From Bolinopsis microptera (taxonomy: Eukaryota > Ctenophora > Tentaculata > Lobata > Bolinopsidae), in NCBI RefSeq assembly GCF_026151205.1, contig NC_087080.1:2583096-2647095 (forward strand): a DNA stretch of 64,000 nucleotides, in the 5' to 3' direction. How positions within the stretch are numbered: the first letter of the stretch is position 1; each line of letters begins with the position of its first letter. This document shows, piece by piece, positions 8,405 through 63,922 of the stretch. Both the position numbers and the translations under genes were made by a program. The notes below the pieces were generated by a model. That model was not told the origin of the DNA, did no database searches, and saw only the letters and a program-made list of their open reading frames with translations.

Positions 8405-11400
8405 CTAAAACAACTCCAACCTCTCCTCATGCCTAGCTATCAACTGCAATGTCCGCTCCACGCTAGATAACCCACTATTCCCTTCATTAGAATCAAGTGT
8501 TACAGTGCTATTACTATTAGAATTAACAGTAACTACTTCAGTATTATCATTATCGTTACTGTTATTTCTCTGATATTTACTGAGACCGGTGGCATCTGTT
8601 TGAGAGTGAAGTGTTGTTTCTGTGTTACTGGTTACATTAGGTGGTGTTGTTGGGTTGCAGGGTTGCTGGAACTTTTTTAGTCTTTTCCGCCGAGTTTGGG
8701 AGGATTTGTCTTCGTCAACACGCATTCTGAGGAATTAAGCTGTCTATTTAAAGCCGTGTGTTAACCGGCGTTATGTGATCATCGACAGATTATGAGATTA
8801 CCGAATAGCCGATTTCGCATCATTATGAATTAAAATTTGAAATCACCATGGTTCGTCTTTTATCTTATCGCCGGCTGTGCACGTTGAGATAAAATGAAAT
8901 ATAAAACCAACTTAAAAATCATGAGTAGCTCTTATCAAGCAGGAATACTTGTCACTTGTCAGTACTCTCTGACTCACCTCTTTGCTTGTTTGTTGAGTAT
9001 CTGTTCGGAAAGAGACACTCCAGAGGAGGAGGCCGCAACACCGACACACCGCCCATAGTGTGGTGACCCCACCCCAGCTGGTGGTGTCCCAACCCCACCA
9101 CCACATTCCTCACGCCACTTGTCTATCCTTTCTGTTAGGGTGGTGTGATGTATTGGCCGGCACTCCGCACTAAACGGCATACCAGTGAATGGGTCTGAAC
9201 TTTCTCGGCCCCATTTTAACCCTGCCGCTGTGTGCTTGTCAACCGTGCTGAAAGTAATGATTTACATGTTGATTCCTCAAATCAGGCTCTCTCTCTGAGC
9301 TACTTGTTTTTCAAGTGGTCACCTCCAACTCGGTTTCATGTAGACTATAATAGAGACTGTCCTCAAGATTATTGATACGTAAACAGACTGCTTAATCTAA
9401 CTTAAATCAAAACAATGGAATATTGTCAATCGTCAGTTTTAGCTACTACATTTTGAAAAGTTTAACTTCCAGTCGACCGCATATTCATAAGTAGTCAACC
9501 TTTTTTGCTTGTTATTGCTCAGTAAGTACTAAACTGTTGCTAGTTTTAATATCTTCATCACTCTTAGAGTAGGAAGTCTTTCATCGCTATCGGCAGCTCC
9601 TTTGCAGTTTGCACTAGCCGAAAGTTTTAACCTTTATATTCGAATAAAACATTTTTAGAGCTCCTACTAAAAGAAGTAGATACACAATGGTTTTCAGTTT
9701 AGTGCATTGTTTTCTCCGATATTACGAATGGAGTATGGCAAGCATCTCCGCCGTTAAAGTGCAGCCATACTCTGGAACGTTCAATCTAAAATTAAAAAGC
9801 TGCATGCTAAACTAGAATTAGATTAGTCGCTTGTTTCGTCTATAGGTATTGCTACTCTTTCGTATCTAGATATGTATTGGTTGCAGCAGTGCTGGCGATG
9901 TTCTTGTGACTTTTCCGTTTTAATGAACCTAAAAATCTGGTAAAAACGTTTTTACCAGGACTCCTGAACGATGGACAACAAAGAGATCTTATTCTTCAGA
10001 AACAATCTCAAACGGACAATTCTCTCCCAGTCCCGGTACCTTTGCCCCAGAAAAAGAGTCCAGCCTGCCACGAAGACCCTCTACACTTCACAAAGCGTAC
10101 CCTTGCTTCCTGGATCTTGTAGGAACATCCTACCAGGCAGTTCGTTACCAAAATCCATCAGTTCAGAAAGTGATGACTTCAAATCTGCCACATCCCTTAC
10201 AACAGAGATCAGCCGGAAGACAGGGTTGGCAAGGAAGTGTCTGAAAGTAACAATACCAACTGCTCGACCATGGTCCTGCTACTCTGATGACAGTTCATTT
10301 CAGTCGTGCTATTCATCAGACAGCAAATCTTGGAATAATCTCAGTCCTGTTTACATAACAAAGCCAAGTCATAGTGTGACGTCATCAAGCCGCCAAGACA
10401 CGTCATCAGAACACCCTGTGACGTCATCAGATCGCCGAAACACTTCATCAGGCCAAATTGTGACGTCATCAGATCGGCGAAACACTTCATCAGGCCAAAT
10501 TGTGACGTCATCAGATCGGCGAAACACTTCATCAGGCCAAATTGTGACGTCATCAGATCGGCGAAACACTTCATCAGGCCAAATTGTGACGTCATCAAAC
10601 TCAAGCACATGGGGAAGTTTTGCGGAGGAAACACCGGACGATTTCAGGGTTAGAAGAGAATCAGAGAAACGGTTATCAGTGGGTTTGGGAGAGGGGAGTG
10701 TTAGATCTGACGACAGTAATCAGCTGGCCAACGTGATATCGGGGGTTTGTTTGCTGGACTCTCTGGAACAAATGAGTAACAGGGGAAACAGGGGGTTACA
10801 ATTTGCAGCTCCTATTAAGGGTGTAAAGTCTGTGTTACACAGACAAATACCTTAGGTGTTCTCTGTTACGCAGATATTCTGTGTTACATCGTGACCGTAT
10901 CGAACCCAGCTGAGGGTTAATTTGATAGAGGAGTGGTGGGAAATGTTTAAGGAGTAAGGAGAACGGTGAAAATGTGGGCCCCGAGACGAGGTTTTATGAA
11001 TGTTAAACGAAGTGAAATACGTGGAGAGATAGTTTAACTTACCTTGAATCGACGACATTGCCACTGGGTAATATTACTGGACATGCCATGACATGTCGGG
11101 TGATGGCATCTAGAAATTCCTCAGGAACAGAAGTTGTACTCGTTGTGCTCTCGGAATGTGAAGTCTCTGATTTAGTTTGAAGTAATGAACAGTGTGGGAT
11201 TATTCTAGCTTTCCTTTCTTGTTGAGATTTTTCCTGTAAAAGAATAAAATTGACGAAAGCCCTTTGTTAAAAAACCCTATTGTTTAAAAAAGTGTATTTA
11301 TGGAATGGAAAACTTTTAAACGGCCGGAAAACAATTGCCGAAACCTCTTGATGCACCTAGTGCACATTTTGAACGATTACCTTTTTGATTTTATCTTTAA

Positions 11401-24110: not shown

Positions 24111-24882
24111 GCAGCAACTTTGCGAGCACGTTCGTGATAATATTATTTAAATCTTCTGATATTAGTACTAAAAGTTTTTTCTCGATGAGCTGTCAGCTGA
24201 TTGCCATAATAATTATTCCGTAATAACAAAAACTGTGGAAGTTATAATCCAAAAACTAACAAGAATTGCGCCCGTTGTTTTGTTTTGGCGGACGCTAGAT
24301 TTCCATTTCACATTTACTATAAATTTAAGTATAAGCTCCAATCAGCTCACTTCAATCTTCATGATAATAATATTGATATATTATGCATCAAATACGGGAA
24401 ACACTTGAAATTCAGTTCAATTGTGAATTGCCGTAGAACTTAACTTGTATCTGTAATTCAAGAAATTATCAGCATAGGTAAAATATACTCGTGTACACAT
24501 CAATACACAGACACTATGCGTGCAGTGCCACGTACAAATTGGGCGTATTACCTAATAGTAATATTATACATTACATTTAACGGGTGATACTCGTTAAATA
24601 TCTGTTCCATATAGTCGACGAGTCCAACTCGGCGCGCGTCCTGGTAGGTTGTAAACCTACAAACATTACATGCATCATATACATTAAAACACAGTTGCGC
24701 CGCGCATTCATAGATCACAGGCTATCTATACATCACATCTCCGCAAGCAATCCTCGCGCGTGCGCAACTTTTTCGTTGCATGGTAACGGACGGAATGACA
24801 TCATATTCAGACCCGCCTACTGCTATCTCCAAAATCCACGTTTTTCTGCAAAAACCTCCATTCGTAACCTTTCACTATTGCC

Positions 24883-26460
24883 TTTTTTCAAAAGGGTGAA
24901 AAGGAAAAAATTTGTGTGAAAGGCTCGCGCGGTGAACAGGCGCCGTGCAGCATTTTTAGCGAAAATTGCTACACGTGGTGGAATTATTTTATTCACAATT
25001 TTAAACAACTTTTGGTACCAACTTTATCAAATCGGAAAAAATTCTGTGTTAGCGTGTCTCTGTGGTATGGCAACCCTAGTTTAGTATATAGGGAAGGTTG
25101 CCGGAGAAATCAAAGTGTATATTATATAGTGGAGGATGTGAGAAAGTGTTATAATCTGAGGGAGATGAGCTGTGTCATGAGGGAACGCTTAAATGTCAGC
25201 TGGGCCGGTTGTGAATCGAGCGTCAAAAATTTTGTTTGAGCAGTGAGGGAACCAATTATGTTATTAATAAAGAAAAGCATAATGAATTTCTTAGGTTTAA
25301 TCCCCATGTTGCCAAGAAACGTTTTATTAACTTATAATCAGGCAGTTTTTTACTGGGTCTTTGAACCTAGAATTTTATTAAAATGTTTAAATTTTGTATA
25401 AATATTTAATTTAGTTCTTACCAGGCATTAAAGCTTTAGCATGAGCTTATAGAATATGTCTCTAGGGGAAACCCAGGGATAAGACTGTAGAATAGTCTCT
25501 CATCCTCAGTGTGTAGCTTGGAACTGTTCTGCTCACAGTTGTTTCAAATCCTAACATCAAGTTTAAAGTTGTCATATTTGCACCTTTACAGTGTTAATTA
25601 ATGATGATTAGGATGAGACTTTTACACTAATTTATTTAAACCTCTTTCTAGAATCTTTTATCAGAGATCCCCAGAAACCACAAAATTGTGTTTGCATGAT
25701 TTCAGGAATCACTTCAGAGCTGCAAGTATCTGTGGAGATAGTTGGGTTTTGTTGCGGAGTTTTGTTGGAGAATTGCTTGTTTCTCTTATATCATCAAGTT
25801 TGCTTATTGAAAATATATAAAGATTATTATTAATATTGCTTACTGTAATAAAGTTCACTGAAGCCTAATACATGACCAATGACCATTCAGGTATGAGGTG
25901 ATATTGTCAAAAGAACACCAGTTACATTGAATCACATCATGCTTCTCCTGTTACTCAGCCTATTTGGACTTTCTCTTCAGTTCAATCTTGACACTCAATC
26001 AGTTCAAATATTAACAAGTGACAATGGCATGTTTGGCTACACAGTCGCATTGCACAAAAAAGGTGCAGACGAAAAATTAATATTAGTTGGATCTCCTGAT
26101 GCGAATACAGGCATACCAGGGGTTGTGGAGGGAGGAGCAGTGTTCAAATGCAATGTTCCACGTCTAGATGAGGTTTCCTCCACACCTGTTGAGTGTGTTG
26201 AAACCATTGATGCTTTTAATGATGGTGGTAATGCCTACTATGACGATTTTGGACTAAAAGAGCCAGAGGAAAGTGATATTTATACTATACTTGCTGAGAA
26301 TAAAAGCCGACAGTTTCTTGGTGTATCAATGGCTGCAACTGATGATTATGTTGCTGTGTGTGGTCATCGATATGAGCACAGATTCTGGCTGAACAGCTAC
26401 AAAGGGGACCTTCCAAGACAGCTCATTGGTCGCTGTATAGTGGTAAGCTGACACGATTAG
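24883..26460 (+). repeat. Upstream copy of a 1.58-kb duplication with integrin exon 1
   Basis: The segment 24883-26460 reappears at 30677-32254 at a constant offset of 5794 bp. Both long open frames encoded in it (107 and 174 codons) are identical in the two copies, so divergence is very low. The copy stops at the sequence GCTGACACGATTAG, where the satellite begins. A frame at 24916-25239 lacks an ATG at its start and has no recognised domain; it is best treated as non-coding. Confidence 0.9.
25939..26442 (+). pseudogene. Orphan first coding exon of integrin alpha (upstream copy)
   Basis: Identical in protein sequence to exon 1 of the integrin alpha gene at 31733: a signal peptide (MLLLLLSLFGLSLQF) and the first beta-propeller blades, ending at an intact GTG/GTAAGC donor. 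It is followed by satellite DNA instead of exon 2. It could in principle splice over about 6.2 kb to exon 2 and act as an alternative first exon; otherwise it is a relic or an assembly duplicate. Confidence 0.75.
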
Positions 26461-29400
26461 TTGTGGACACAACAAGAAAATTGAGAATAATCTTGTGCGA
26501 GGGTAGGGACCCAGATGTCGTTTCTAACCCAAATAAACTTTAAGGAGGCTTCTCATCAGTAGCCGCACCTCCTTACTCGGTTTCTGAACTGGAATTCTAT
26601 GGGCTTCCAGACGGCCAGACCGAGTATTACCATCCCATCCTTCTAGAGTTCATCACAAGTAGCACCCACCTTGAAGATCTTTGACACCCAGACACACCCC
26701 ATTGGCGAACAAACTTTGGATATAATCTTACATGCTCCCGAAGGAATCCCTGGTTTATGGTCTTTCTCATCGTCACCAGCACTTTCACTAGGTCACCAGC
26801 TCTTTCACTGAAGTCATCAGCCCTTTCACTGAAGTCATCAGATGTGACTCTGATCAACGGTATAGTTGTGGACACAACAAGAAAATTGAGAATAATCTTG
26901 TGCGAGGGTAGGGACCCAGATGTCGTTTCTAACCCAAATAAACTTTAAGGAGGCTTCTCATCAGTAGCCGCACCTCCTTACTCGGTTTCTGAACTGGAAT
27001 TCTATGGGCTTCCAGACGGCCAGACCGAGTATTACCATCCCATCCTTCTAGAGTTCATCACAAGTAGCACCCACCTTGAAGATCTTTGACACCCAGACAC
27101 ACCCCATTGGCGAACAAACTTTGGATATAATCTTACATGCTCCCGAAGGAATCCCTGGTTTATGGTCTTTCTCATCGTCACCAGCACTTTCACTAGGTCA
27201 CCAGCTCTTTCACTGAAGTCATCAGCCCTTTCACTGAAGTCATCAGATGTGACTCTGATCAACGGTATAGTTGTGGACACAACAAGAAAATTGAGAATAG
27301 TCTTGTGCGAGGGTAGGGACCCAGATGTCGTTTCTAACCCAAATAAACTTTAAGGAGGCTTCTCATCAGTAGCCGCACCTCCTTACTCGGTTTCTGAACT
27401 GGAATTCTATGGGCTTCCAGACGGCCAGACCGAGTATTACCATCCCATCCTTCTAGAGTTCATCACAAGTAGCACCCACCTTGAAGATCTTTGACACCCA
27501 GACACACCCCATTGGCGAACAAACTTTGGATATAATCTTACATGCTCCCGAAGGAATCCCTGGTTTATGGTCTTTCTCATCGTCACCAGCACTTTCACTA
27601 GGTCACCAGCTCTTTCACTGAAGTCATCAGCCCTTTCACTGAAGTCATCAGATGTGACTCTGATCAACGGTATAGTTGTGGACACAACAAGAAAATTGAG
27701 AATAATCTTGTGCGAGGGTAGGGACCCAGATGTCGTTTCTAACCCAAATAAACTTTAAGGAGGCTTCTCATCAGTAGCCGCACCTCCTTACTCGGTTTCT
27801 GAACTGGAATTCTATGGGCTTCCAGACGGCCAGACCGAGTATTACCATCCCATCCTTCTAGAGTTCATCACAAGTAGCACCCACCTTGAAGATCTTTGAC
27901 ACCCAGACACACCCCATTGGCGAACAAACTTTGGATATAATCTTACATGCTCCCGAAGGAATCCCTGGTTTATGGTCTTTCTCATCGTCACCAGCACTTT
28001 CACTAGGTCACCAGCTCTTTCACTGAAGTCATCAGCCCTTTCACTGAAGTCATCAGATGTGACTCTGATCAACGGTATAGTTGTGGACACAACAAGAAAA
28101 TTGAGAATAATCTTGTGCGAGGGTAGGGACCCAGATGTCGTTTCTAACCCAAATAAACTTTAAGGAGGCTTCTCATCAGTAGCCGCACCTCCTTACTCGG
28201 TTTCTGAACTGGAATTCTATGGGCTTCCAGACGGCCAGACCGAGTATTACCATCCCATCCTTCTAGAGTTCATCACAAGTAGCACCCACCTTGAAGATCT
28301 TTGACACCCAGACACACCCCATTGGCGAACAAACTTTGGATATAATCTTACATGCTCCCGAAGGAATCCCTGGTTTATGGTCTTTCTCATCGTCACCAGC
28401 ACTTTCACTAGGTCACCAGCTCTTTCACTGAAGTCATCAGCCCTTTCACTGAAGTCATCAGATGTGACTCTGATCAACGGTATAGTTGTGGACACAACAA
28501 GAAAATTGAGAATAATCTTGTGCGAGGGTAGGGACCCAGATGTCGTTTCTAACCCAAATAAACTTTAAGGAGGCTTCTCATCAGTAGCCGCACCTCCTTA
28601 CTCGGTTTCTGAACTGGAATTCTATGGGCTTCCAGACGGCCAGACCGAGTATTACCATCCCATCCTTCTAGAGTTCATCACAAGTAGCACCCACCTTGAA
28701 GATCTTTGACACCCAGACACACCCCATTGGCGAACAAACTTTGGATATAATCTTACATGCTCCCGAAGGAATCCCTGGTTTATGGTCTTTCTCATCGTCA
28801 CCAGCACTTTCACTAGGTCACCAGCTCTTTCACTGAAGTCATCAGCCCTTTCACTGAAGTCATCAGATGTGACTCTGATCAACGGTATAGTTGTGGACAC
28901 AACAAGAAAATTGAGAATAATCTTGTGCGAGGGTAGGGACCCAGATGTCGTTTCTAACCCAAATAAACTTTAAGGAGGCTTCTCATCAGTAGCCGCACCT
29001 CCTTACTCGGTTTCTGAACTGGAATTCTATGGGCTTCCAGACGGCCAGACCGAGTATTACCATCCCATCCTTCTAGAGTTCATCACAAGTAGCACCCACC
29101 TTGAAGATCTTTGACACCCAGACACACCCCATTGGCGAACAAACTTTGGATATAATCTTACATGCTCCCGAAGGAATCCCTGGTTTATGGTCTTTCTCAT
29201 CGTCACCAGCAGTTTCACTAGGTCACCAGCTCTTTCACTGAAGTCATCAGCCCTTTCACTGAAGTCATCAGATGTGACTCTGATCAACGGTATAGTTGTG
29301 GACACAACAAGAAAATTGAGAATAATCTTGTGCGAGGGTAGGGACCCAGATGTCGTTTCTAACCCAAATAAACTTTAAGGAGGCTTCTCATCAGTAGCCG

Positions 29401-30675
29401 CACCTCCTTACTCGGTTTCTGAACTGGAATTCTATGGGCTTCCAGACGGCCAGACCGAGTATTACCATCCCATCCTTCTAGAGTTCATCACAAGTAGCAC
29501 CCACCTTGAAGATCTTTGACACCCAGACACACCCCATTGGCGAACAAACTTTGGATATAATCTTACATGCTCCCGAAGGAATCCCTGGTTTATGGTCTTT
29601 CTCATCGTCACCAGCACTTTCACTAGGTCACCAGCTCTTTCACTGAAGTCATCAGCCCTTTCACTGAAGTCATCAAATGTGACTCTGATCAACGGTATAG
29701 TTGTGGACACAACAAGAAAATTGAGAATAATCTTGTGCGAGGGTAGGGACCCAGATGTCGTTTCTAACCCAAATAAACTTTAAGGAGGCTTCTCATCAGT
29801 AGCCGCACCTCCTTACTCGGTTTCTGAACTGGAATTCTATGGGCTTCCAGACGGCCAGACCGAGTATTACCATCCCATCCTTCTAGAGTTCATCACAAGT
29901 AGCACCCACCTTGAAGATCTTTGACACCCAGACACACCCCATTGGCGAACAAACTTTGGATATAATCTTACATGCTCCCGAAGGAATCCCTGGTTTATGG
30001 TCTTTCTCATCGTCACCAGCACTTTCACTAGGTCACCAGCTCTTTCACTGAAGTCATCAGCCCTTTCACTGAAGTCATCAGATGTGACTCTGATCAACGG
30101 TATAGTTGTGGACACAACAAGAAAATTGAGAATAATCTTGTGCGAGGGTAGGGACCCAGATGTCGTTTCTAACCCAAATAAACTTTAAGGAGGCTTCTCA
30201 TCAGTAGCCGCACCTCCTTACTCGGTTTCTGAACTGGAATTCTATGGGCTTCCAGACGGCCAGACCGAGTATTACCATCCCATCCTTCTAGAGTTCATCA
30301 CAAGTAGCACCCACCTTGAAGATCTTTGACACCCAGACACACCCCATTGGCGAACAAACTTTGGATATAATCTTACATGCTCCCGAAGGAATCCCTGGTT
30401 TATGGTCTTTCTCATCGTCACCAGCACTTTCACTAGGTCACCAGCTCTTTCACTGAAGTCATCAGCCCTTTCACTGAAGTCATCAGATGTGACTCTGATC
30501 AACGGTATAGTTGTGGACACAACAAGAAAATTGAGAATAATCTTGTGCGAGGGTAGGGACCCAGATGTCGTTTCTAACCCAAATAAACTTTAAGGAGGCT
30601 TCTCATCAGTAGCCGCACCTCCTTACTCGGTTTCTGAACTGGAATTCTATGGGCTTCCAGACGGCCAGACCGAGT
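26461..30675. repeat. 405-bp satellite, 10.4 tandem units
   Basis: Units start at 26461 and every 405 bp thereafter to 30511, followed by a 165-bp partial unit ending GACCGAGT. Units are almost identical; single differences were noted near 27300, 29211 and 29676. Each unit contains an internal ~24-bp repeat (CTTTCACTGAAGTCATCAG twice). The 82- and 63-codon open frames on both strands repeat only because the unit does; they show no recognisable domain. Confidence 0.97.
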
Positions 30676-30676
30676 T

Positions 30677-32254
30677 TTTTTTCAAAAGGGTGAAAAGGAA
30701 AAAATTTGTGTGAAAGGCTCGCGCGGTGAACAGGCGCCGTGCAGCATTTTTAGCGAAAATTGCTACACGTGGTGGAATTATTTTATTCACAATTTTAAAC
30801 AACTTTTGGTACCAACTTTATCAAATCGGAAAAAATTCTGTGTTAGCGTGTCTCTGTGGTATGGCAACCCTAGTTTAGTATATAGGGAAGGTTGCCGGAG
30901 AAATCAAAGTGTATATTATATAGTGGAGGATGTGAGAAAGTGTTATAATCTGAGGGAGATGAGCTGTGTCATGAGGGAACGCTTAAATGTCAGCTGGGCC
31001 GGTTGTGAATCGAGCGTCAAAAATTTTGTTTGAGCAGTGAGGGAACCAATTATGTTATTAATAAAGAAAAGCATAATGAATTTCTTAGGTTTAATCCCCA
31101 TGTTGCCAAGAAACGTTTTATTAACTTATAATCAGGCAGTTTTTTACTGGGTCTTTGAACCTAGAATTTTATTAAAATGTTTAAATTTTGTATAAATATT
31201 TAATTTAGTTCTTACCAGGCATTAAAGCTTTAGCATGAGCTTATAGAATATGTCTCTAGGGGAAACCCAGGGATAAGACTGTAGAATAGTCTCTCATCCT
31301 CAGTGTGTAGCTTGGAACTGTTCTGCTCACAGTTGTTTCAAATCCTAACATCAAGTTTAAAGTTGTCATATTTGCACCTTTACAGTGTTAATTAATGATG
31401 ATTAGGATGAGACTTTTACACTAATTTATTTAAACCTCTTTCTAGAATCTTTTATCAGAGATCCCCAGAAACCACAAAATTGTGTTTGCATGATTTCAGG
31501 AATCACTTCAGAGCTGCAAGTATCTGTGGAGATAGTTGGGTTTTGTTGCGGAGTTTTGTTGGAGAATTGCTTGTTTCTCTTATATCATCAAGTTTGCTTA
31601 TTGAAAATATATAAAGATTATTATTAATATTGCTTACTGTAATAAAGTTCACTGAAGCCTAATACATGACCAATGACCATTCAGGTATGAGGTGATATTG
31701 TCAAAAGAACACCAGTTACATTGAATCACATCATGCTTCTCCTGTTACTCAGCCTATTTGGACTTTCTCTTCAGTTCAATCTTGACACTCAATCAGTTCA
31801 AATATTAACAAGTGACAATGGCATGTTTGGCTACACAGTCGCATTGCACAAAAAAGGTGCAGACGAAAAATTAATATTAGTTGGATCTCCTGATGCGAAT
31901 ACAGGCATACCAGGGGTTGTGGAGGGAGGAGCAGTGTTCAAATGCAATGTTCCACGTCTAGATGAGGTTTCCTCCACACCTGTTGAGTGTGTTGAAACCA
32001 TTGATGCTTTTAATGATGGTGGTAATGCCTACTATGACGATTTTGGACTAAAAGAGCCAGAGGAAAGTGATATTTATACTATACTTGCTGAGAATAAAAG
32101 CCGACAGTTTCTTGGTGTATCAATGGCTGCAACTGATGATTATGTTGCTGTGTGTGGTCATCGATATGAGCACAGATTCTGGCTGAACAGCTACAAAGGG
32201 GACCTTCCAAGACAGCTCATTGGTCGCTGTATAGTGGTAAGCTGACACGATTAG
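30677..32254 (+). repeat. Downstream copy of the 1.58-kb duplication
   Basis: Matches 24883-26460 at offset 5794. It contains the presumed promoter and 5' UTR region and exon 1 of the intact integrin alpha gene, and it continues into unique intron sequence at 32255. Confidence 0.9.
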
Positions 32255-39065: not shown

Positions 39066-42000
39066 ATGTATTATCAAAACTATTTACTGCTAATTTCCTT
39101 GCTATTTAACGCTATCTTCTCTTATAATATTGATGTTCAATCCCCCTATGTGGTAAAGGTGAGTTGAAATTGTATTATTTTAATGGTCTAGCAAGTCGTG
39201 ATATCATGTCCCGTCATTACAGTAGAATATGATTTAATAGTAGCTCTGTGAAGGCTTCAAATTGTTAGCTCCGAACCAACCGTCCTATAAATTTGGCTAT
39301 TTTAAATCACTTTGACAAGTTCTATGAATTATTTAGATTTATATTTTAATCTTCATGATAATATTATGAATTGAATATAAGAGCTGGATAATATATGTTC
39401 ACGGTGATACTATTTTAGGTCCAGGCCAACCAGGAGGGGTCATTGTTTGGATTCTCTACAGCTCTTCACATATACAACGGCGAAAAGTTCATTTTAGTCG
39501 GTGAGTTAACCATATTGCAGCGTGATCTATACTTAATGTTAGATTCTGTGGGAGGCAGGCACGAGTTTGATTTTCACGAACGTAACAACTAACAACTAAG
39601 TAAACTCTAGTTTAGGAATCTATTTTGTCAGCTTCACTATTTTATCTTGTTAAGGTGCTCCACGAGCAAACTGGACGTCGGGTACTGGAGTAGGGCTTGA
39701 CAGTCCAGGAGCTGTTTACAAATGTCCCCTGGATGACTCCATTGCTAACCCTGATTCTGAAGCTACGTGTACAGAACAGGTTAGAAAAGCCTGCCCGTAT
39801 AAACATCTAGTTTTCTGACCTGAACATTTATAGTAGATCATGATATTTTAAAAGCAACTTTAAAACCCTCATTATTTTGTTTTAGATAACGCATTTCACC
39901 AACGACAACGAGCGAAACGAAGCAAAAGAAGATAAGGCAAATCAATGGCTGGGTGTAAACATTCAGTCGACTGATAACCACGTGACAGCATGCGCGCACA
40001 GGTACATTTCTTTATTTTTATTGAATTTAGCTGAACAGGGTCATCATTATTCTCCTTCTAAATTTGGAACCTATTACTTTTGAATTCTTTAAAAAATTAC
40101 CATCCGAATGACTCAGTTTACCATGTAAAGTATTAAAAATAGTAAAACTGCAAGGTTTGAAATTGACTGTATCTCAGATACGTGTCTCTGGAGGGAGGAG
40201 ATAATAAAAGGATGCCGATAGGTAAGTGCACTGTGATCGGACCCTCTCTTGAAGGAAATGATGGTGTTGAAAAGAAGACATTGTTTCCTTGCAGAGATAG
40301 CGCAGGCCTCAACCTCGACAGTGGCTCTTGCCAGGTATGTGATGACATTATTGTGAGGAAACGACCGGCTTAAATTCATTTGTTTTTCTCAAACAACTGT
40401 TACTTACTCAAATGTAATCGCTCAAATTGCACAACCCACTAGAATCTAACCCCCGCCCCCCCCCCCCCCCTCTAGAATCTAACCCCCCTCCCCCTCTAGA
40501 ATCTAACCCCCCCTCCGTCAGGTTGGTTCAAGTCAAGTTCAGTACAAAGACGGTAGTAAGTCCTACCTGCTGTACGGAGCACCCGGTGTAGATATCTGGG
40601 AGGGAAGTGCTTATCTAGCTGAGAGTCTGGACGATGTTAAGTCATCTAAAAAGATTGACAAGATGGATCCAGGTCCGAGGGACTTTAATCAATATAACGG
40701 ATACGCAGTAGCTATTTGCAGGATGAGTGGTGCTGACCAACCCCTCGACTTAATTACCGGTATGTTTATCTTATATTTGATCTCATTATCTCTAATTTCT
40801 ATATTTGAATAATTAGCCGGATAAGCAAGTTAGCAGCTGTTATCATCTCAGTTCAGGGATCTTACAATGAACCATAAGTTAGGAAAGTTGGCACTTGACA
40901 TACATTTGATATACACTTGACATACACTTGACATACATTTGACATACATTTGACATACATTTGACATACATTTACAGTTGACTTGTATTTTCAGCGGCTC
41001 CTCGTGCTAACAACTACCTTGGCATACTGTACTTCTTCGTCAGTGACAACACCAACACAAACGAGAAGACTCTACTCAGGAACAGCAGATTCAACGAACA
41101 ACTCACAGGTTTGTGGATACAAGGATACAAGTATACAAAAGTGATAATTATTTTATTGAGTACACAATAGTTGTAATTCTGAAATAATTTAAGTTACACA
41201 ATACTAATTATTTACAAATGTGTAGGTTTGTGTGTTCTGTCAAACTTTAGAGCAGCCTGCCCTGTCTCAATATACTGATTTAATGAACTCTAGTTTGTCT
41301 TACAGTGAACCTGATGATTTAAATGCAGCAGAAAATAGCCCTGCTTGTTAAATTAATTCATTTCAATTCTAATAATTCACGAATTTAATCCCCGACCTTC
41401 TTAACAGGTGACCAGATGGGGGCTTATTATGGCTACTCAATGGCGTGTGGTGATCTGGATGGTGATGGTAACGACGACCTGGTTGTCTCCGCACCTTGGT
41501 ACTCAATGGTAACCAACTCCAAGTCTTCCATTGTCAGTGTGGGACGGGTTTACGTGTACTACGGGGATCCCAACAAGGTTGTGGCTAATGCCAACAAACC
41601 CACTATTATTGGTACGTTTACAAGGTTGTGGCTAATGCCAATAAACCCACTATTATTGGTACGTTTAAATTTGGAGTTCTTATATATCATTATATCTTGT
41701 GATCTTATACAGGATTATATTGTGATATTAACAGATTTTGTGGTGTCTAGTGAGCTAGTGATCTCATTCCGTCGCGCTCTAGTGATTGGATTGTATTAAA
41801 TTGCACAGATTTGATATATTTTACAAGTCAAATTGTTTAATATTCGTTTTAAAATTTATGTATTTAAAGTCTAACTTGTATGTTCTCATTTTACAAGTGC
41901 ATCTTATGGAGTTTTTTGTCCGTTATTGCTGAAGGAGTGTCCATAATATTAACCATATTCGTACGTAAATCGATTAAGTTAATTGGAAAATAAGGCGATA

Positions 42001-45000
42001 TTACAAACTATGTAACATTATGACATGGACACATTATACAATTTACATCTAATGTGCAAAATGAAATATGTATGTACTTATTTTAAGTAATTAATGTTAA
42101 CAAATATTACAGAGGCGCCCCACACCACCACTTCTGCGTTTGGACTGGGTTTAGCCCACATTGGTGACATCAACAAGGATGGTTACCAGGACTTTGCTAT
42201 CGGAGCACCGTATGAGAACGACTATAAAGGTAAAGCTCATGTCCATATAAGGAATAATTGACTATACGTCTAACAAGATAACTGATAAGGATACATGACT
42301 GTACATGTACACTGTACATTACTGAACATTACTGTGCATTACTGTACATTACTGTACATTACTGTACATTACTGTACATTACAGTTGTACAATCAGTTGT
42401 CATGTGACAGTTACCGGTGTCGTGTCTGCTACACTGATAGTGTGGTTTTAAAAAGCTCTGGTGGATACTGTAGTGATGACGAAATGACGATCATATTATT
42501 TTATTTGTCGATCCAAGCGGAGAGTATTTTGTCCCTCAAACTTAAAAAGTACTTTCAAACCGACTATGATATGTTTTTATCATGGTCTCATGGTCTGCGT
42601 CTCAGCCTGATCACGATTTTTAAATGATTAATAAATTATGACACAAACTATTGTTCAGGTGCTGTTTACATATACCACGGCTCAAGAAACGGCATCAAGA
42701 AAACTCCTGTCCAGGCCATCTACCCAACTGAGCTAGGAAATGGATTAGGAGGTTAGTTTAGGATTTCATTTAGCGAGTTCAGAATTAATACCTCTCGTAT
42801 CCGTTCTCCTGTCTACCTATTAGTTAATAGATACTCTAATTTCTTCAACCTAATCAGAATATAACAATGACACAATTAACAATATAGCGTCAGTTCTAAA
42901 GCGCTGTTAAGATACATACTTGAGCTATGTGTATAATACGTGTAGTGTGTGACTAACGTGTTATGTGTGACTAACGTGTTATGTGTGACTAACGTGTAGT
43001 GTGTGACTAACGTGTAGTGTGTGACTAACGTGTTGTGTGTATAATACGTGTAGTGTGTGACTAACGTGTAGTGTGTGACTAACGTGTTATGTGTATAATA
43101 AGTGTCGTGTGTGACTAACGTGTAGTGTGTGACTAACGTGTTGTGTGTGACTAACGTGTTGTGTGTATAATACGTGTAGTGTGTGACTAACGTGTAGTGT
43201 GTGACTAACGTGTTGTGTGTATAATACGTGTAGTGTGTGACTAACGTGTAGTGTGTGACTAACGTGTTATGTGTATAATACGTGTAGTGTGTGACTAACG
43301 TGTAGTGTGTGACTAACGTGTTGTGTGTGACTAACGTGTTGTGTGTGACTAACGTGTAGTGTGTGACCAACGTGTAGTGTGTGACTAACGTGTTATGTGT
43401 ATAATACGTGTTATGTGTATAATACGTGTAGTGTGTGACTAACGTGTAGTGTGTGACTAACGTGTTTTGTGTGACTAACGTGTTTTGTGTATAATACGTG
43501 TTATGTGTGACTAACGTGTAGTGTGTGACTAACGAGCTATGTGTGACTAACGTGTTTTGTGTATAATACGTGTTGTGTGTGACTAACGTGTATAATTTCA
43601 GACAATCTGCTGTCCTTTGGTTGGTCCATATCGGCTAACAAGGACATGGACAGTAACGACTACCCTGATATGGCTATTGGAAGCTACATGTCTGAAAGAG
43701 TGGTAATTATGATAATATTACATTAATTAATTGTTTAATTGACGTGTATGAAATGTTCATAAAATAGAGATAACCTCTATTGGTTACGACATCTTTCCCA
43801 AACTGTTCTGTCGTTTTTATCTGTTCTACTATATTTAAACAGTTTTCAAACCCCGCCATTGCAACCACAACCTCTCAGGTGTATCTCCGATCTCTTCCAA
43901 TTGTTGATCTAAATATCGAGATAGTGATCCCTTCGGACCCGGTGGATCTAGAAGATGAGACCAAGAACATTCCTGGCTCTGCCCCAGTCCAGTCTTACCC
44001 TGGCACTACTCTCAAGATCTGCTTCAGAACTTACAGTCAGTTCATATTTACATTTCTTTTAAACTGATATTTACTGTTCTGATAGTCAGTTGAGGATAAC
44101 GGGCGTATTTCTTAATTGTAAACCTTTGTAAAATAAGGATGTGCAGTAATGTGATGAATACCTAAAATACAAAATTCCCCTTTTTGTTTTCTTACATTTC
44201 ATCTTTCAAAGGACAAAGTGTTGGTAAATACGAGATAAACTACGAAGTAGAGCTCGACTACAAGCAAAGCTATGCTCCACGTGCTTTCTTCCAGGAGAAT
44301 GCAGCCAGCAAAATTGAGGTTCCCTTGAAATGAGTTGTTTAGTTTTTTTTGTCGCATTGAAGTTTTTTGACATTTTTTGTTTCTGTCTCTTTTTCTGATT
44401 CTGACCGATATTTCTACCACAGTTCAAGAAGAGTGACACAAAGTTGATAGACATCAACTCACCTGAGATACAGTGTACACCCGAATGGACAGTGTTCCTT
44501 AAGAAGAAAGATCAGATGTTCGACGCGCAGACTTACATTGAGGTCAACATGACAGCTAATATCAAGGTAACTATCTTCAACTTTATAATGATAATATTAT
44601 CTGCTCTTATCTAGTAGTAACTAGTAACTGATCACTTAATTCTCGGTCAGGACAAAGAGTGGTCTGAAAATAAATGGCACTGCACAGTGCTCCTTCAATT
44701 GTTACGTATATTAGCCAAAAGTTTTTGTGTACCGGAATGCATAGCAAATACCCCGTAACTCAACATTCACCATATTATCCAATATCTATAATGAGTAGTA
44801 AACATTCCCACCCTAGGAATCAGACGATATCGCGGACAGAGCAGTGCTGAAGCAGGAGCAGGTGACAGCAGCCAAGGGACGGATTGTTATCAAGTCTATC
44901 TGCACCTCCGACACAGGAATATGTCAGTGTGATGTTAGTCTGAAGGAGCCCAGTGTTACTTATCTACCCGCTGGTTACGATAGTATAGTGCTGGATAACG

Positions 45001-48000
45001 TTAACCAGGTAATAATGTATAATGTATAATGTACACTTTATAATAATGTATAATGTATAATGTACACTTTATTAGTTTGACAACTTTGTTCAATGTAGCA
45101 ATTTGATGTCCATGATGATTGGTTTGTAACTTAGGTTTATCAAGCCTACAGGACTAACATTTGAATTTTTGAATCTATGCTTAAAGAATTATTTTAACAA
45201 AGCAGATAGTATCAATTAATATATTGTGTAGATGCCCGATACCTTATCAGTTGATAACCATACTGATTACAGGTGATAGTGAAGTATGAAGTAGAGAACC
45301 TGGGACCAGATAACGCTCATGTTCCTACCCTGATATTAGAACTCCCACCGAAAGTTACCTTCATCAGAAGGGTAGGTTCAAGCACTGATAATAATTGTGG
45401 TATTCAAGTTGGGGCTTTCTTTAAACTTAAATCTTAAAACGTCAATAAGGGTTGTCTTGAATTATCCATTGCTATTTGCCTGCGAGGATAAGTTTCAATA
45501 GTTGGAGTATCTTTTTTGTGTTTTGTTTCCCACACGTGTCACGTATCGCTTTTTCAAGTTTAAAAAAGTAGCAATTAGCACATAACTTCTTTACTTTACT
45601 TAATATCTCAAACTAAGTTAACATATCAACTTCTTTTGTTAAGTAATGAAAGGTGGGTTAGAACTGACATCTGATATATAATACGGCTAGTCCTGATAAC
45701 ACATATCACTGTGATGACAGTACTATACTAATATGTGAACTATCAGAACTGTTAATTTTAGCTCACCTTGCATTACCTACACAGGGCTACTACATTTTCC
45801 TAGATATAATATTCCAAATTACGTGTGTAAAATAACAGTCTGTGTGTAAAAGTCGGACGTGTGACCCTTATATCCCACCCTTAGACCACCCATGGAGCAG
45901 TTAAGTAGTTTACAGTCTTTCTCGTCAGGCAAAGTTCCCCTTTGCACGACAGCACTGTACAGCCGACTAATTAATTAACAAATTAATTACCAGCAGAGTA
46001 TTTAGTGTTTTCTATTTCACATTTCACGTCCGCCTCCTCACTTATGTACACGAGTACATTCCATGCATTATGTACAACTTATGCTATGCATAGTATACCC
46101 TGTATACAGTATACATTTAAACCTTTGGCTTATTATAAGGAATCTGGAGATCTTAGTAGAATCCAAGAAGCCTGCCACAGCTGCACTAGGCGGAATTCCA
46201 CCATGGATTTTCACCGCGCTGTGTTTGGCTTCTTAGATTCTGCCGAAACCTAGTCAAGTTAATAATCAAAAACCCGAGATGAGATTATCTTTTCCCACAA
46301 TGATTATCCTTTACAAGGTTAACTTTGACTAGATTCCAACCAGATTGTTTCTTAAGAATTTGTCACTTTTTCCTCGCACGTCCCAGGATCTAATTCGTTC
46401 CGAAATAGCCTCTTTTAAATTTTAAAATATTTTTGTTTTCGATTTAAGCGGGTTCGATAACATATTAATAATATTCGCCGAATTTTCTCGGATATTCACT
46501 AATAATGCACTGAGTATCATCTAATCAACTTTGACGCAGGAATGAGTGAGATTACTTGAATGTAAATAACACTGCAATCTGAATGTGATATGTGCTTTGT
46601 ATTGGGTTGTTCAAATTTTAAATGAAACAAGAAAATTAAATTCATGCAAAATTAAAGCTTTTACTTTTACTCAGATCAATCACTAAGATTAAAACATCTA
46701 CTTATCCTTTCTGAACTTTATCTCCCATATTTAGACGCCAGTAGATGATCAGACAGAGGCTGACGTTTCTCAGATAGCCTGCTCAGAAATAGAAGCTAAT
46801 GATAAGAATTACGTAATGTGTTTCCTTCAAGATCCCCTTAGGGTGGGCGAACCCTCAAAGTTCGGGATCAAGCTCGATACAATGAGCTTAACTGATGTTG
46901 AGGCTATTAAGTTGACTGCCAAGGTAAGTTTTGTTTTTAGAATAAGAAATCCAAACATTTAGACGATTGAACCCAAGGAGCTGGTTTTTGTAAGATCTAA
47001 TTAAAATCGTAACATTCTTCAGGTGAACATTGGCTCTCCTAGCGAGGAGAAAGAAGGTAAAAAAGGAAATAACGAGCAAACAATAACACTTGATGTTGGA
47101 GAACAGGCTAATCTGGAAATCCGGGGCACCTCAGCAACTGACCAGAATGCTATCAGGCCAGACCTGGCTCTACTTGAAGACAATGCCTTCCTCAGAAGCA
47201 TCAAACTCGAGGTTTGCGGTCGAACCATCAGGAATTATTGTGCGAGAATTCCTGCTGTTATAATTCAATGAGACCCCGTACATTTTGTGGTACAGGACAA
47301 CCGACCGAGTTATTTTAACTGTTAAAAGTTTATACACAACATGTTACTGAAATGTTTGTAGGTTCGACATACAGTGTCAGTACTGATAAAGGAGAGCGAT
47401 AAGAAAGACGGGGATGAAGATGGAATTACAAACATTGTTGTCGAGGTCAGCTGGCCAATGCGGGACCATGATGGCAATTATTTGCTTTATCTTAGTGAGG
47501 TAATTATGAAATTAAGATAATTCATGAAATGAAATCGTTATAACAATCCCTTTTGTAAACGTTCTGGTGAAGTTCGTGTATTAGTTTTGATCGGAACGTC
47601 TAAAGAACTTGTAGTCCAGCCAAACATTGACTTTCTTAAATTTATGAAAAAGGATCATAATAGCTTAACAACAACCATCTTCAGGTGTATGTGAAAGATA
47701 ACCAGATCAAGGATAACTTCATAGTCGACTCCAACGTTATAGACCCTAAATGTTTCTTCGACTACAACGAGGACTGTAAGAAGGCTCCAGAATTCTCTGC
47801 TGTGTCGGAAGGGGAGAAAACAGAAGAGGAGATGGAGCGAGCAGCAAATGCAGCTGTTCTTAACACCAACTGTAGCATTCCCGATCCAGGGTGTGAGAAA
47901 TTCAACGTCACTATCAACCTGCTCAAGGCAGGCAGTATCAACATGAAGGACCTTGAGTTTGAGATGCGGTCCATTATTTGGCTCCCTAACGTTATTAACC

Positions 48001-59199: not shown

Positions 59200-62100
59200 C
59201 TAAGCACCACCGACTTTCTTGTTGTTACCCTGAAAAGAAACTGGTATCAAATCTGAAAGCTACAATTCATATCATCATTTAACACATTTACTGCTTGACG
59301 AGGTAATGATAGAGGTATGACCGTAAAGAGTAATCTCTCACTGATTTGCTCAGTTCAGTTTATTCTAGTTATGAAAACAGTCCTGTAATGTTAGATGAAG
59401 TAGCTTACCAGTAGGACCGCAATAATGACCCCGAACAGTCCAATAGCACTACCGAAGATTTCAATCACCAAAATCTGTGGATATTTAAGAATTGTCAAAA
59501 CAGATCGCATTGTTAAACAAGTTCTACCCCGGATATTGGGTCAAACTGTTTCAAGTAATATCATTAAACGGAGTTTTTGTTATTGATACGCCATGTAAAA
59601 GCTATGATCATATCATGCTGCTCACATCATGTAAAGAGTGCTTATTAATTTAAACAACTTACCCTGACGAATAGATCTGAGTTCTGTGCATCAGCTAGGG
59701 CGGCCCCACTGAAATGGTTCTGTGATTACATCATTACACTTGACACTGGTGTGATTGAATCAGTCTTGACTCTCGTACACTCCGTAAGCTTGGGATCAAC
59801 CGGATACACCAATTGCGCGCAGCATCTATTGCTAGTTTTTAGTGCCGACAGTCACATGCTGCATGTATACGCGCGTATAAGTTCCGGGCGCGCGGTAGAC
59901 CCTTCAAATAATTATGTGACAAAACATGGCACACACTCGTGATGGAATTTACACAAGGCAATGAAATGTAACTCGATCATTAGGTCACAATACTGTAGTG
60001 ATGACCTCTATCACCAGGGAACGGGACAGGTTTTTGTTTCAGACTTTTCCGTTAACATTGATGATACAAAGCAGTCCTCTTTCATTTGCTTTTTAATCGA
60101 TGCTTGTTAAATGTGAGCTCATATTTCACCCTTCTTCATGAATATTAATATGGTCAGAAATACCTTGGCTCATAGCAAGAAGTATAATTAGAGCCAAAAC
60201 ATAAGTAAGCTCATCATTACCTTTATAGTAAAACTGTGTGTGAGTATTAACTATTACATGAAAAGAAGTGCACTAATTGATCCAGGTGCTCAGGTGGCGT
60301 GTAAGCAATATGTTGCTACTCCGAGAAAAGCACACTATTATGTTGACTCATCTGGTTCCTACTTCCTTAAATACTTAAGGAACTCGTTAAGCGAGTCGGT
60401 ACAATGTTTCTAGATGCTGTGTCCTCATAACACATCCTACGTTAACGTAAACACTGTAGTTCTGTAACTACTACTGTAGTTCTGTAAGAGAATAGTGCTT
60501 TAAAGATCACGTGTTAAAGATCAGGTGTTAAAGATCACGTGTTAAAGATCACGTGGTGGTACAAACCAATTAAAACGCACCTGCCGACAATACCAACACA
60601 TATCCCACAGGCTAGATTACACAGTCCAGTCAGGAGTCCAGCGAAGAAGAGACAGTATCCTGAAATTGGCAAGCAATCAAATATACTGCATATTTAGTTA
60701 CATATAACATATGTAACATATTTAGCTGCATATGAAACCACTATATGATCTGACTACAGGCAGTGTAAAAGTTCATTATAAAACACCATCATCATGTGAG
60801 CTACATCATGAAACGTAAGACTTGTACTAGGATTTACAATGAGACTCAATGTTATTCCAAGTTACCGTTGTAGACGTAAGTAAAGGTTAAAGTTACCGTT
60901 GTAGACGTAAGTAAAGGTTAAAGTTACCGTTGTAGACGTAAGTAAAGGTTAAAGTTACCGTTGTAGACTACACTATACTATTACTACTACTCTCTACTAT
61001 GTTATTCCAAGTTACCGTTGTAGACGTAAGTAAAGGTTCAAGTTACCGTTGTAGACGTAAGTAAAGGTTAAAGTTACCGTTGTAGACTACACTATACTAT
61101 TACTACTACTCTCTACTATGTTATTCCAAGTTACCGTTGTAGACGTAAGTAAAGGTTCAAGTTACCGTTGTAGACTACACTATACTATTACTACTACTCT
61201 CTACTATGTTATTCCAAGTTACCGTTGTAGACGTAAGTAAAGGTTAAAGTTACCGTTGTAGACGTAAGTAAAGGTTAAAGTTACCGTTGTAGACTACACT
61301 ATACTATTACTACTACTCTCTACTATGTTATTCCAAGTTACCGTTGTAGACGTAAGTAAAGGTTCAAGTTACCGTTGTAGACTACACTATACTATTACTA
61401 CTACTCTCTACTATGTTATTCCAAGTTACCGTTGTAGACGTAAGTAAAGGTTCAAGTTACCGTTGTAGACGTAAGTAAAGGTTAAAGTTACCGTTGTATA
61501 CGTAAGTAAAGGTTAAAGTTACCGTTGTAGACGTAAGTAAAGGTTAAAGTTACCGTTGTAGACGTAAGTAAAGGTTCAAGTTACCGTTGTAGACGTAAGT
61601 AAAGGTTAAAGTTACCGTTGTATACGTAAGTAAAGGTTAAAGTTACCGTTGTATACGTAAGTAAAGGTTAAAGTTACCGTTGTAGACGTAAGTAAAGGTT
61701 TAAGTTACCGTTGTAGACGTAAGTAAAGGTTAAAGTTACCGTTGTAGACTACACTATACTATTACTACTACTCTCTACTATGTTATTCCAAGTTACCGTT
61801 GTAGACGTAAGTAAAGGTTAAAGTTACCGTTGTAGACGTAAGTAAAGGTTAAAGTTACCGTTGTATACGTAAGTAAAGGTTAAAGTTACCGTTGTAGACG
61901 TAAGTAAAGGTTTAAGTTACCGTTGTAGACGTAAGTAAAGGTTAAAGTTACCGTTGTAGACTACACTATACTATTACTACTACTCTCTACTATGTTATTC
62001 CAAGTTACCGTTGTAGACGTAAGTAAAGGTTTAAGTTACCGTTGTAGACGTAAGTAAAGGTTAAAGTTACCGTTGTAGACTACACTATACTATTACTACT

Positions 62101-63922
62101 ACTCTCTACTATGTTATTCCAAGTTACCGTTGTAGACGTAAGTAAAGGTTAAAGTTACCGTTGTAGACGTAAGTAAAGGTTAAAGTTACCGTTGTAGACT
62201 ACACTATACTATTACTACTACTCTCTACTATGTTATTCCAAGTTACCGTTGTAGACGTAAGTAAAGGTTCAAGTTACCGTTGTAGACTACACTATACTAT
62301 TACTACTACTCTCTACTATGTTATTCCAAGTTACCGTTGTAGACGTAAGTAAAGGTTAAAGTTACCGTTGTAGACGTAAGTAAAGGTTAAAGTTACCGTT
62401 GTAGACTACACTATACTATTACTACTACTCTCTACTATGTTATTCCAAGTTACCGTTGTAGACGTAAGTAAAGGTTCAAGTTACCGTTGTAGACTACACT
62501 ATACTATTACTACTACTCTCTACTATGTTATTCCAAGTTACCGTTGTAGACGTAAGTAAAGGTTCAAGTTACCGTTGTAGACGTAAGTAAAGGTTAAAGT
62601 TACCGTTGTATACGTAAGTAAAGGTTAAAGTTACCGTTGTAGACGTAAGTAAAGGTTAAAGTTACCGTTGTAGACGTAAGTAAAGGTTCAAGTTACCGTT
62701 GTAGACGTAAGTAAAGGTTAAAGTTACCGTTGTATACGTAAGTAAAGGTTAAAGTTACCGTTGTATACGTAAGTAAAGGTTAAAGTTACCGTTGTAGACG
62801 TAAGTAAAGGTTTAAGTTACCGTTGTAGACGTAAGTAAAGGTTAAAGTTACCGTTGTAGACTACACTATACTATTACTACTACTCTCTACTATGTTATTC
62901 CAAGTTACCGTTGTAGACGTAAGTAAAGGTTAAAGTTACCGTTGTAGACGTAAGTAAAGGTTAAAGTTACCGTTGTATACGTAAGTAAAGGTTAAAGTTA
63001 CCGTTGTAGACGTAAGTAAAGGTTTAAGTTACCGTTGTAGACGTAAGTAAAGGTTAAAGTTACCGTTGTAGACTACACTATACTATTACTACTACTCTCT
63101 ACTATGTTATTCCAAGTTACCGTTGTAGACGTAAGTAAAGGTTAAAGTTACCGTTGTAGACGTAAGTAAAGGTTTAAGTTACCGTTGTAGACGTAAGTAA
63201 AGGTTCAAGTTACCGTTGTAGACTACACTATACTATTACTACTACTCTCTACTATGTTATTCCAAGTTACCGTTGTAGACGTAAGTAAAGGTTAAAGTTA
63301 CCGATGTAGACTACACTATACTATTACTACTACTCTCTACTATGTTATTCCAAGTTACCGTTGTAGACGTAAGTAAAGGTTAAAGTTACCGTTGTAGACT
63401 ACACTATACTATTACTACTACTCTCTACTATGTTATTCCAAGTTACCGTTGTAGACGTAAGTAAAGGTTTAAGTTACCGTTGTAGACGTAAGTAAAGGTT
63501 AAAGTTACCGTTGTAGACTACACTATACTATTACTACTACTCTCTACTATGTTATTCCAAGTTACCGTTGTAGACGTAAGTAAAGGTTAAAGTTACCGTT
63601 GTAGACGTAAGTAAAGGTTAAAGTTACCGTTGTAGACGTAAGTAAAGGTTAAAGTTACCGTTGTAGACTACACTATACTATTACTACTACTCTCTACTAT
63701 GTTATTCCAAGTTACCGTTGTAGACGTAAGTAAAGGTTAAAGTTACCGTTGTAGACGTAAGTAAAGGTTAAAGTTACCGTTGTAGACGTAAGTAAAGGTT
63801 AAAGTTACCGTTGTAGACGTAAGTAAAGGTTAAAGTTACCGTTGTAGACGTAAGTAAAGGTTAAAGTTACCGTTGTAGACGTAAGTAGCGTAGTTTTCCT
63901 TGAAACCCTCCTCAGTCGAAGC
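59200..63922 (-). CDS. ATP6V0B: V-ATPase 21-kDa proteolipid subunit c'' (3' part; 5' end outside window)
   Basis: Five minus-strand exons join in frame: 63922-63871, 60659-60581, 59708-59663, 59474-59409 and 59229-59200. They encode the C-terminal ~90 residues: EEGFKENYATYVYNG, then CLFFAGLLTGLCNLACG, GICVGIVGSGAALADAQN and ILVIEIFGSAIGLFGVII, ending NNKKVGGA. The IEIFGSAIGLFG block is diagnostic of subunit c'' rather than c, and its Glu lies in the last helix. In the membrane ring of the vacuolar H+-ATPase these proteolipids carry protons into endomembrane compartments. Upstream exons lie beyond position 64000. The intron 60660-63870 is almost wholly a minisatellite derived from the preceding exon's end and donor. 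Confidence 0.93.
60501..60556. repeat. 14-bp tandem repeat with CACGTG E-boxes
   Basis: Four units of TAAAGATCACGTGT (the second has CAGGTG). CACGTG therefore occurs three times, 25 bp beyond the exon at 60581 of the ATP6V0B-like gene, inside its intron. CACGTG is the core of bHLH-Zip sites; in vertebrates TFEB/CLEAR elements controlling V-ATPase genes have the core TCACGTGA (established knowledge), and TCACGTG is present here. Confidence 0.85.
60862..63870. repeat. ~3-kb compound minisatellite (31- and 57-bp units) built from a splice donor
   Basis: The plus-strand short unit is GTTACCGTTGTAGACGTAAG followed by TAAAGGTTAAA (31 bp; variants TATACG, GGTTCAA, GGTTTAA). The long unit begins GTTACCGTTGTAGACTACAC and ends TATGTTATTCCAA (57 bp). 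They alternate irregularly from about 60862 to the exon border at 63870. On the minus strand each short unit reads TTACGTCTACAACG/GTAACT, which is the same as the true end of exon 63922-63871 plus its donor. Larger blocks of units also repeat, for example 61435-61760 against 62530-62865. Confidence 0.97.

Follow-up and report, generated by a model that had tools for sequence, protein, structure and literature searches.

Tandem arrays built from a splice junction have been described in other animals. In amphioxus, 5' or 3' intron-exon boundaries that have been duplicated in tandem, in the manner of a minisatellite, were given the name "mirage" (PMC3087553); they are reported in Adh3, in the globins BflGb6 and BflGb9 and, as added by a later study, in troponin C and PGBD5 (PMC3087553, PMC3902484). 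According to these accounts, the copies lie in the intron with their AG/GT signals, evolve in concert and do not disturb regular splicing. Their units measure 10-72 bp in Adh3 and 150-160 bp in the globins, and two BflGb6 haplotypes carry 3 and 6 units. In human IFI6, downstream units of a minisatellite are described as splice donors that give rise to isoforms (PMC4526556). Duplicated genes in humans are also reported to carry variable internal tandem repeats where exon and intron meet (PMC2812944), and the Rogers model, as cited in PMC3087553, derives intron gain from the tandem duplication of AG/GT proto-splice sites. Here we analyze a 64,000-nucleotide stretch of the genome of the ctenophore Bolinopsis microptera (hereafter the window; GC content 37.7%), in which about 3.0 kb of intron 4 of the gene for V-ATPase subunit c'' is an array of copies of the intron's own 5' junction. 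Our literature search on intron or minisatellite arrays in ctenophores, which was based on titles and abstract openings and covered subscription journals poorly, returned no report of such arrays.

The c'' gene lies on the minus strand and runs from position 65034, past the window end in an adjoining stretch (L009), to 59200. The gene model comprises 8 exons encoding 213 aa, with every intron bounded by GT-AG and all phases consistent. The product contains the Pfam ATP synthase C domain (PF00137, E = 1.5e-26), and a PDB search placed it nearest to mammalian V-ATPase c'' (E = 1.5e-62). A search of the genome for c'' paralogues returned two matches only, which were exons 2 and 3 of the same gene. 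With intron sizes of 284, 164, 295, 3211, 872, 188 and 179 bp, intron 4 is the outlier in length. The elements discussed below are as follows:

63871-63922, minus strand: exon 4 of V-ATPase c'', 52 nt, whose last 17 nt (63871-63887) form the exon part of the repeat unit
60660-63870, minus strand: intron 4, 3,211 nt, GT-AG, phase 1 (gene model)
60859-63887, minus strand: junction minisatellite (donor mirage), 62 units of 31 bp and 19 units of 57 bp, 82 donors, the first at 63870 and the last at 60865
60581-60659, minus strand: exon 5 of V-ATPase c'' (GYCLFFAGLLTGLCNLACGICVGIVGS; gene model)
59200-59708, minus strand: exons 6-8 of V-ATPase c'' (59663-59708, 59409-59474 and 59200-59229; gene model)

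A first-pass annotation of this DNA had placed exon 4 at 63922-63871, and both the gene model and the protein alignment agree with that exon end, with the G at +1 of the donor at 63870. Where exons 4 and 5 join (..YVYN-G-YCLFF..), the product carries 0-1 extra residue relative to mammalian c'' in the five alignments shown.

The array is composed of the junction itself. In the 31-bp unit, the first 14 nt of intron 4 are followed by the 17 nt that end exon 4, and these 17 exon nucleotides are exact in 54 of the 62 units, the remaining 8 carrying a single change. The 57-bp unit contains the last 9 nt of the exon, exact in 18 of 19 cases, and the donor is present in all units. Altogether, the CGGTAACT donor occurs 82 times between 63870 and 60865, 81 of these being extra copies within intron 4; 81 donors read ACG/GTAACT and one reads TCG/GTAACT. 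The first unit after the exon is also the commonest, being matched identically by 37 of the 62 31-bp units, and the 17 exon bases are found in the second and the last copy as well as in the first. Downstream of the last donor come GTAACTTGGAATAACAT and, after it, unique intron sequence. Since the same 17 bases also open the 57-bp unit, their position after the last donor suggests that GTAACTTGGAATAACAT is the old start of intron 4. These observations bear out the first-pass description of 31-bp and 57-bp repeats of the exon end and donor over about 3 kb, together with its claim that the minisatellite derives from the exon-intron junction.

The copy number excludes a chance origin of the array. 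The 20-mer CTTACGTCTACAACGGTAAC, taken from the unit, has 55 exact matches in the 264.65-Mb genome, all inside the c'' array, and a 119-nt query of two units returned 32 matches, likewise all inside the array, in a search that skips very common words. An Rfam scan of the window gave 0 matches at gathering scores. The units are homogeneous: only 6 distinct sequences were found among the 81 (37, 18, 10, 8, 7 and 1 copies), and the 62 31-bp units differ from one another by 2.2% on average. Such homogeneity is what concerted evolution would produce, and it is also compatible with a recent origin or an assembly error. Within the array, a run of 26 units is present twice, and two blocks of 798 bp each (60921-61718 and 62033-62830) differ at 1 base, as expected from either unequal exchange or assembly error. 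The exact copy number is therefore unproven, given these near-identical blocks and an assembly that is described as built from PacBio reads with wtdbg2, gap closing and pilon polishing (PMC10232365).

To follow the coding consequences of donor choice, we translated the transcripts that would result from donors 1, 2, 3, 4, 7 and 82. Only donor 1 yields the full 213 aa. Use of donor 2 adds 31 nt, which encode ...NGNFNLYLRLQRILSLLRWTPDWTV followed by a stop, for a product of 164 aa ending in RILSLLRWTPDWTV, while donors 3, 4, 7 and 82 give 151 aa, with NGNFNLYLRLQR and then a stop. In the later donors tested, the stop codon falls 11-24 codons past the normal junction. Among the six donors tested, an intact protein thus requires the first, as had been proposed from the sequence; the premature stop proposed for the next donor also stands, but the peptide preceding it has to be corrected to ...NGNFNLYLRLQRILSLLRWTPDWTV, with NGNFNLYLRLQR for donors 3, 4, 7 and 82.

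The donors themselves are ordinary in strength. We compared them with the donors of 29 introns from three gene models, namely c'' and two integrin-like genes that were modeled with our own small gene finder (FG-GAP repeats, E = 6e-24 and 3e-16); this set leaves out an uncertain exon of 34 nt (47023-47056) together with the intron space on either side of it. ACG/GTAACT ranks 21st of 29 by a matrix derived from these local donors with leave-one-out scoring and 23rd of 29 by its U1 duplex energy (-5.2 kcal/mol), and GTAACT is also found at another local donor. When two unit sequences were folded, their RNA structure did not exceed that of shuffled sequences (z of +1.1 and +2.0). The 31-bp units are too alike, at their mean difference of 2.2%, to reveal constraint on the donor.

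Judged by its sequence anatomy, the c'' array is a mirage in the amphioxus sense: its tandem units span the boundary, joining exon end and intron start, and its extra copies are intronic and keep their splice signals, in the form of 81 further CGGTAACT donors. It differs from the amphioxus cases in its phylum, in its units of 31 and 57 bp and 82 donors, and in the genome-wide counts presented below, which point to a common feature. Like IFI6, a functional analogue, c'' has a minisatellite at an exon end with units that carry splice donors, but the downstream units are used for isoforms in IFI6, while the later c'' donors tested would break the protein. The human boundary repeats and the Rogers model share with c'' the tandem duplication across splice signals; they are models of how new introns form, whereas c'' shows no new intron or exon and retains a single normal junction between exon 4 and intron 4. 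The first-pass annotation had regarded a repeated functional 5' splice site at this copy number as unusual. That such an array is unusual in itself is not supported, as the kind has been named in amphioxus (PMC3087553) and more such arrays are found in this genome. We thus consider the c'' array a further case of a known kind, with a high copy number; what looks new is the prevalence of mirages in this genome.

We searched the genome for three AGGTRAGT motifs in series and used the reversed motif as a control; the matches count copies, not arrays. At a spacing of 5-35 nt, 2,112 matches were found versus 206 for the reversed motif (about 10-fold), and at 35-65 nt, where short-unit arrays are also counted, 3,295 versus 212 (about 15-fold). 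The single motif, in contrast, occurs 19,232 times versus 15,615 (1.2-fold). Among the matches listed, the donor motif formed 7 arrays in the first 9.4 Mb of assembly sequence C1, while the first 100 reversed-motif matches represented about 6 arrays across the whole of C1 plus 13.5 Mb of C2, giving a donor-motif array density roughly 5 times that of the reversed motif, from small numbers. The reversed control is impure, in that the arrays at C2:855369 and C2:13538826 themselves contain GGTGAGT.

The edges of all ten donor-motif arrays listed were inspected (seven from the 5-35 nt listing and three more from the 35-65 nt listing, all on C1). Half of them span a junction, comprising four donor mirages and one acceptor mirage:

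L054, C1: donor mirage at a sushi-like exon (E = 0.024, below the cut-off)
L059, C1: donor mirage at a ubiquitin hydrolase exon (PF00443, E = 3e-16)
L060, C1: donor mirage at a sushi-like exon (E = 0.0026, below the cut-off)
L061, C1:884500-885300: donor mirage at a dynein heavy chain exon (PDB match, E = 5e-13)
L062, C1: acceptor mirage, read from the other strand, at a copine exon (E = 1.5e-4, below the cut-off)

In the four donor mirages and in L071, described below, two compared copies share 7 to 41 exon-side bases. L062 contains three acceptor copies in the stretch examined, and its last and previous copies are identical over 17 exon-side bases. As a separate observation, the dynein exon of L061 seems to be internally duplicated upstream of the junction array, with an extra in-frame copy of NARNSEANVLKSREVYRPLAV..FLPVF.

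As far as inspection shows, the remaining five arrays span no junction. L053 and L055 have unit and flanks in common and represent one dispersed family; L056 lies upstream of a methyltransferase open reading frame on the opposite strand (Pfam E = 7.6e-10); L057 is ambiguous; and L058 consists of an intronic tract next to the acceptor of an opposite-strand zinc-finger exon, without exon copies. On the acceptor side, triple TTTCAGR gave 2,409 matches versus 808 for the reversed motif, a weaker excess that stands without a single-motif base rate. Inspecting the edges of five acceptor-motif arrays revealed no clear acceptor mirage; one of them, L083, is ambiguous, its unit lying within an open frame. 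The weaker excess would fit upstream acceptor copies being more harmful, with the reservation that the donor and acceptor motifs differ and the acceptor base rate is absent.

We also turned to samples that were less biased toward the donor motif. Among the 29 introns, a 16-nt junction word recurred in its own intron (with at most 3 mismatches) at 2 donors and 0 acceptors. One of the two donors is that of c'', with 81 copies, and the other, with one copy, belongs to an integrin-like gene:

41573-41667, plus strand: second donor-junction duplication, in which the end of the integrin-like (FG-GAP) exon 41408-41611 and its donor, TTG/GTACGTTT, are copied once into the intron

The donors of this duplication lie at 41612 and 41659, and 16 exon-side bases are identical before the first mismatch.

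Ten 8-kb stretches were then taken at fixed round coordinates from ten chromosomes, and arrays were counted if their basic unit was at least 25 bp and present in at least 5 copies. Six arrays qualified; L078:3639-3911 was excluded for its basic unit of 22 bp, though Tandem Repeats Finder (TRF) also gives 32 and 44 bp. Two of the six are mirages, both in L071 (C6). The first is a donor mirage with a 43-bp unit in 46.7 copies that follows an exon ending ..PGEEATCQ, and the next exon continues VSYFPVVTEHVTGLLTLSLEA. The second, probably an acceptor mirage, has a 69-bp unit in 9.4 copies, with 8 exact acceptor copies, its exon being read only to the stretch end. Matches below the cut-off to Cep192 domain 4 (E = 2e-5) and domain 3 (E = 0.08) make the L071 gene look Cep192-like. 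Visual inspection of the other four arrays (L072, two in L075, and L078) revealed no coding junction. Split by half, the mirages account for 2 of 3 arrays in the first five stretches, both in one stretch, and for 0 of 3 in the second five. By a rough estimate (about 230,000 junctions and 50-bp units, with assumed gene and intron numbers), one would expect some 4% of random arrays at a junction; on that estimate two of six is above chance, a result that rests on one gene. One donor mirage per 80 kb would scale to about 3,000 per genome, with a downward uncertainty of more than 10-fold.

An automatic exon scan with a score threshold, applied to the window and the first five stretches, tempers these figures. 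The scan, which missed the L071 exon, covered 35 exons of the window and 7 of the stretches. Donors recurred at 2 window exons and no stretch exon, acceptors at 1 and none. Of the two control words, one from the middle of the exon recurred at no exon of either set, and one taken 60 nt into the intron recurred at 3 window exons and 1 stretch exon, so that in this sample junction words were not in excess over intronic control words. Repeated junctions are thus no more common here than plain intronic repeats, and the reading of junctions as hot spots is not settled.

Taken as a whole, we think it probable that the c'' array is a donor mirage that arose by tandem duplication of the junction, grew near neutrality and is spliced from the exon-adjacent donor through exon definition. 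Initially, a segment comprising the 17-nt end of exon 4 and the adjoining start of intron 4 would have been duplicated; slippage or unequal exchange, with segmental copying within the array, could then have expanded it to 82 donors. Because one complete junction stays beside the real exon and all spare copies fall in the intron, this growth would have been almost unseen by selection. The spliceosome would most likely take the exon-adjacent donor, which is transcribed first and has the whole 52-nt exon with its 3' splice site directly upstream; exon definition is the likely reason, as the copies lack both. The same anatomy in other genes of this genome (L054, L059, L060, L061, L071 and the integrin-like gene of the window) supports this explanation, and the undisturbed splicing of amphioxus mirages speaks for it by analogy. 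Several points weigh against it. In vertebrate test genes, duplicated identical 5' splice sites often favor the copy nearest the 3' splice site, a preference that would here select the last donor and destroy the c'' protein. Pure neutrality alone does not explain the 10- to 15-fold excess of donor-array matches over the reversed motif, a count of matches. Finally, the copy number rests on one assembly.

The last of these points could be carried further, to an assembly error that has inflated the copy number or the near-duplicate blocks in part or in whole. The 798-bp blocks 1 base apart, the 26-unit run that appears twice and the use of wtdbg2, gap closing and pilon (PMC10232365) all point in this direction, but either block on its own still leaves dozens of donors, arrays of the same kind with other units are present at further sites on C1 and on C6, and the window itself contains a short case of two copies; we regard this account as unlikely. 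Somewhat less credence goes to the array as a regulator, in which equal donors would dilute correct splicing so that array length tunes productive c'' mRNA via stop isoforms and decay, or in which array-bound U1 would shield the pre-mRNA from being cleaved early. A premature stop does follow from each of the five later donors tested, and the same 9-base donor core is kept in 81 of 82 donors. This conservation is uninformative, however, where few mutations have accumulated anywhere (6 sequences, a mean of 2.2% among the 31-bp units). Moreover, like arrays in unrelated genes (dynein, ubiquitin hydrolase, sushi-like and Cep192-like) are better explained by a general process than by a switch specific to c'', and normal splicing is reported for amphioxus mirages. 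With ordinary donor strength and no unusual RNA structure in the two units folded, the first-pass suggestions of a donor decoy, a U1-binding platform or a length-dependent tuner are unsupported.

Two further accounts are more improbable still. If the repeat had come first and the end of exon 4 had been recruited from it through a shifted splice site, the identity of unit and exon end over 17 nt would be explained as well. The fit to mammalian c'' at the exon 4-exon 5 join, with 0-1 extra residue, argues that the exon end fills its ancestral position and was not recruited, and the exact 20-mer is absent elsewhere in the genome; we therefore consider this origin highly improbable. The least probable account is the use of microexons. 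The 57-bp unit starts with GT, has an AG 48 nt later and continues with TCTACA(A/T)CG and the donor, forming a potential 48-nt intron and 9-nt exon, so the units could splice in 9-nt in-frame exons coding VYN, possibly stepwise. There are 19 such cassettes (GTAG/TCTACA(A/T)CG/GTAACT), and insertion of TCTACAACG preserves the frame without a stop. Yet the cassette AG lacks a pyrimidine tract, the first cassette scoring -1.16 compared with 1.53 to 5.94 for the gene's seven acceptors, and 9-nt exons are seldom spliced unless strong enhancers are present.

Beyond c'', the donor mirage explanation extends to a wider proposition, to which we give an even chance: splice junctions may be preferred birth sites of minisatellites in this ctenophore, such that hundreds to thousands of genes carry donor mirages, and fewer carry acceptor mirages, far above what random tandem duplication would leave, each gene splicing one exon-adjacent copy among many identical ones. 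Junction arrays may be favored by mutation or simply tolerated. The 82 nearly equal donors behind one exon provide a natural experiment on site choice by the spliceosome. Amphioxus mirages are described, in the reports cited above, at a handful of loci; if the present counts hold, this ctenophore has them in hundreds of genes or more. Junctions would then be hot spots for tandem amplification and raw material for new introns, and the genome would offer a large-scale natural experiment on exon definition and on intron gain through duplicated junctions.

Other repeats were observed in and beside the window. Tandem arrays with units containing the branch-point-like CTAAC stand directly before acceptors at 40458-40521, at 42938-43601 and in c'' intron 1 (minus strand, in L009 past the window end), and two of the three have C-rich tracts. 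The last 150 nt of these introns contain 3, 6 and 5 copies of CTAAC, versus 0-1 in the other 26 of the 29; branch-point and pyrimidine signals may thus be amplified too. An integrin-like donor (CCAG/GTAATAAT) has a perfect 31-bp duplication at 45010-45072 that starts one base past the first base of its intron and includes no copy of the exon. The open frame of an integrin-like first-exon region occurs twice in 24868-32242, 5.8 kb apart, and a 405-bp x 10.4 array (26458-30675, 99% matches) lies between the two copies. Lastly, an 885-nt open frame at 9968-10852 contains an internal 42-bp (14-residue) tandem repeat, e.g., VTSSDRRNTSSGQI, in about 5 copies.

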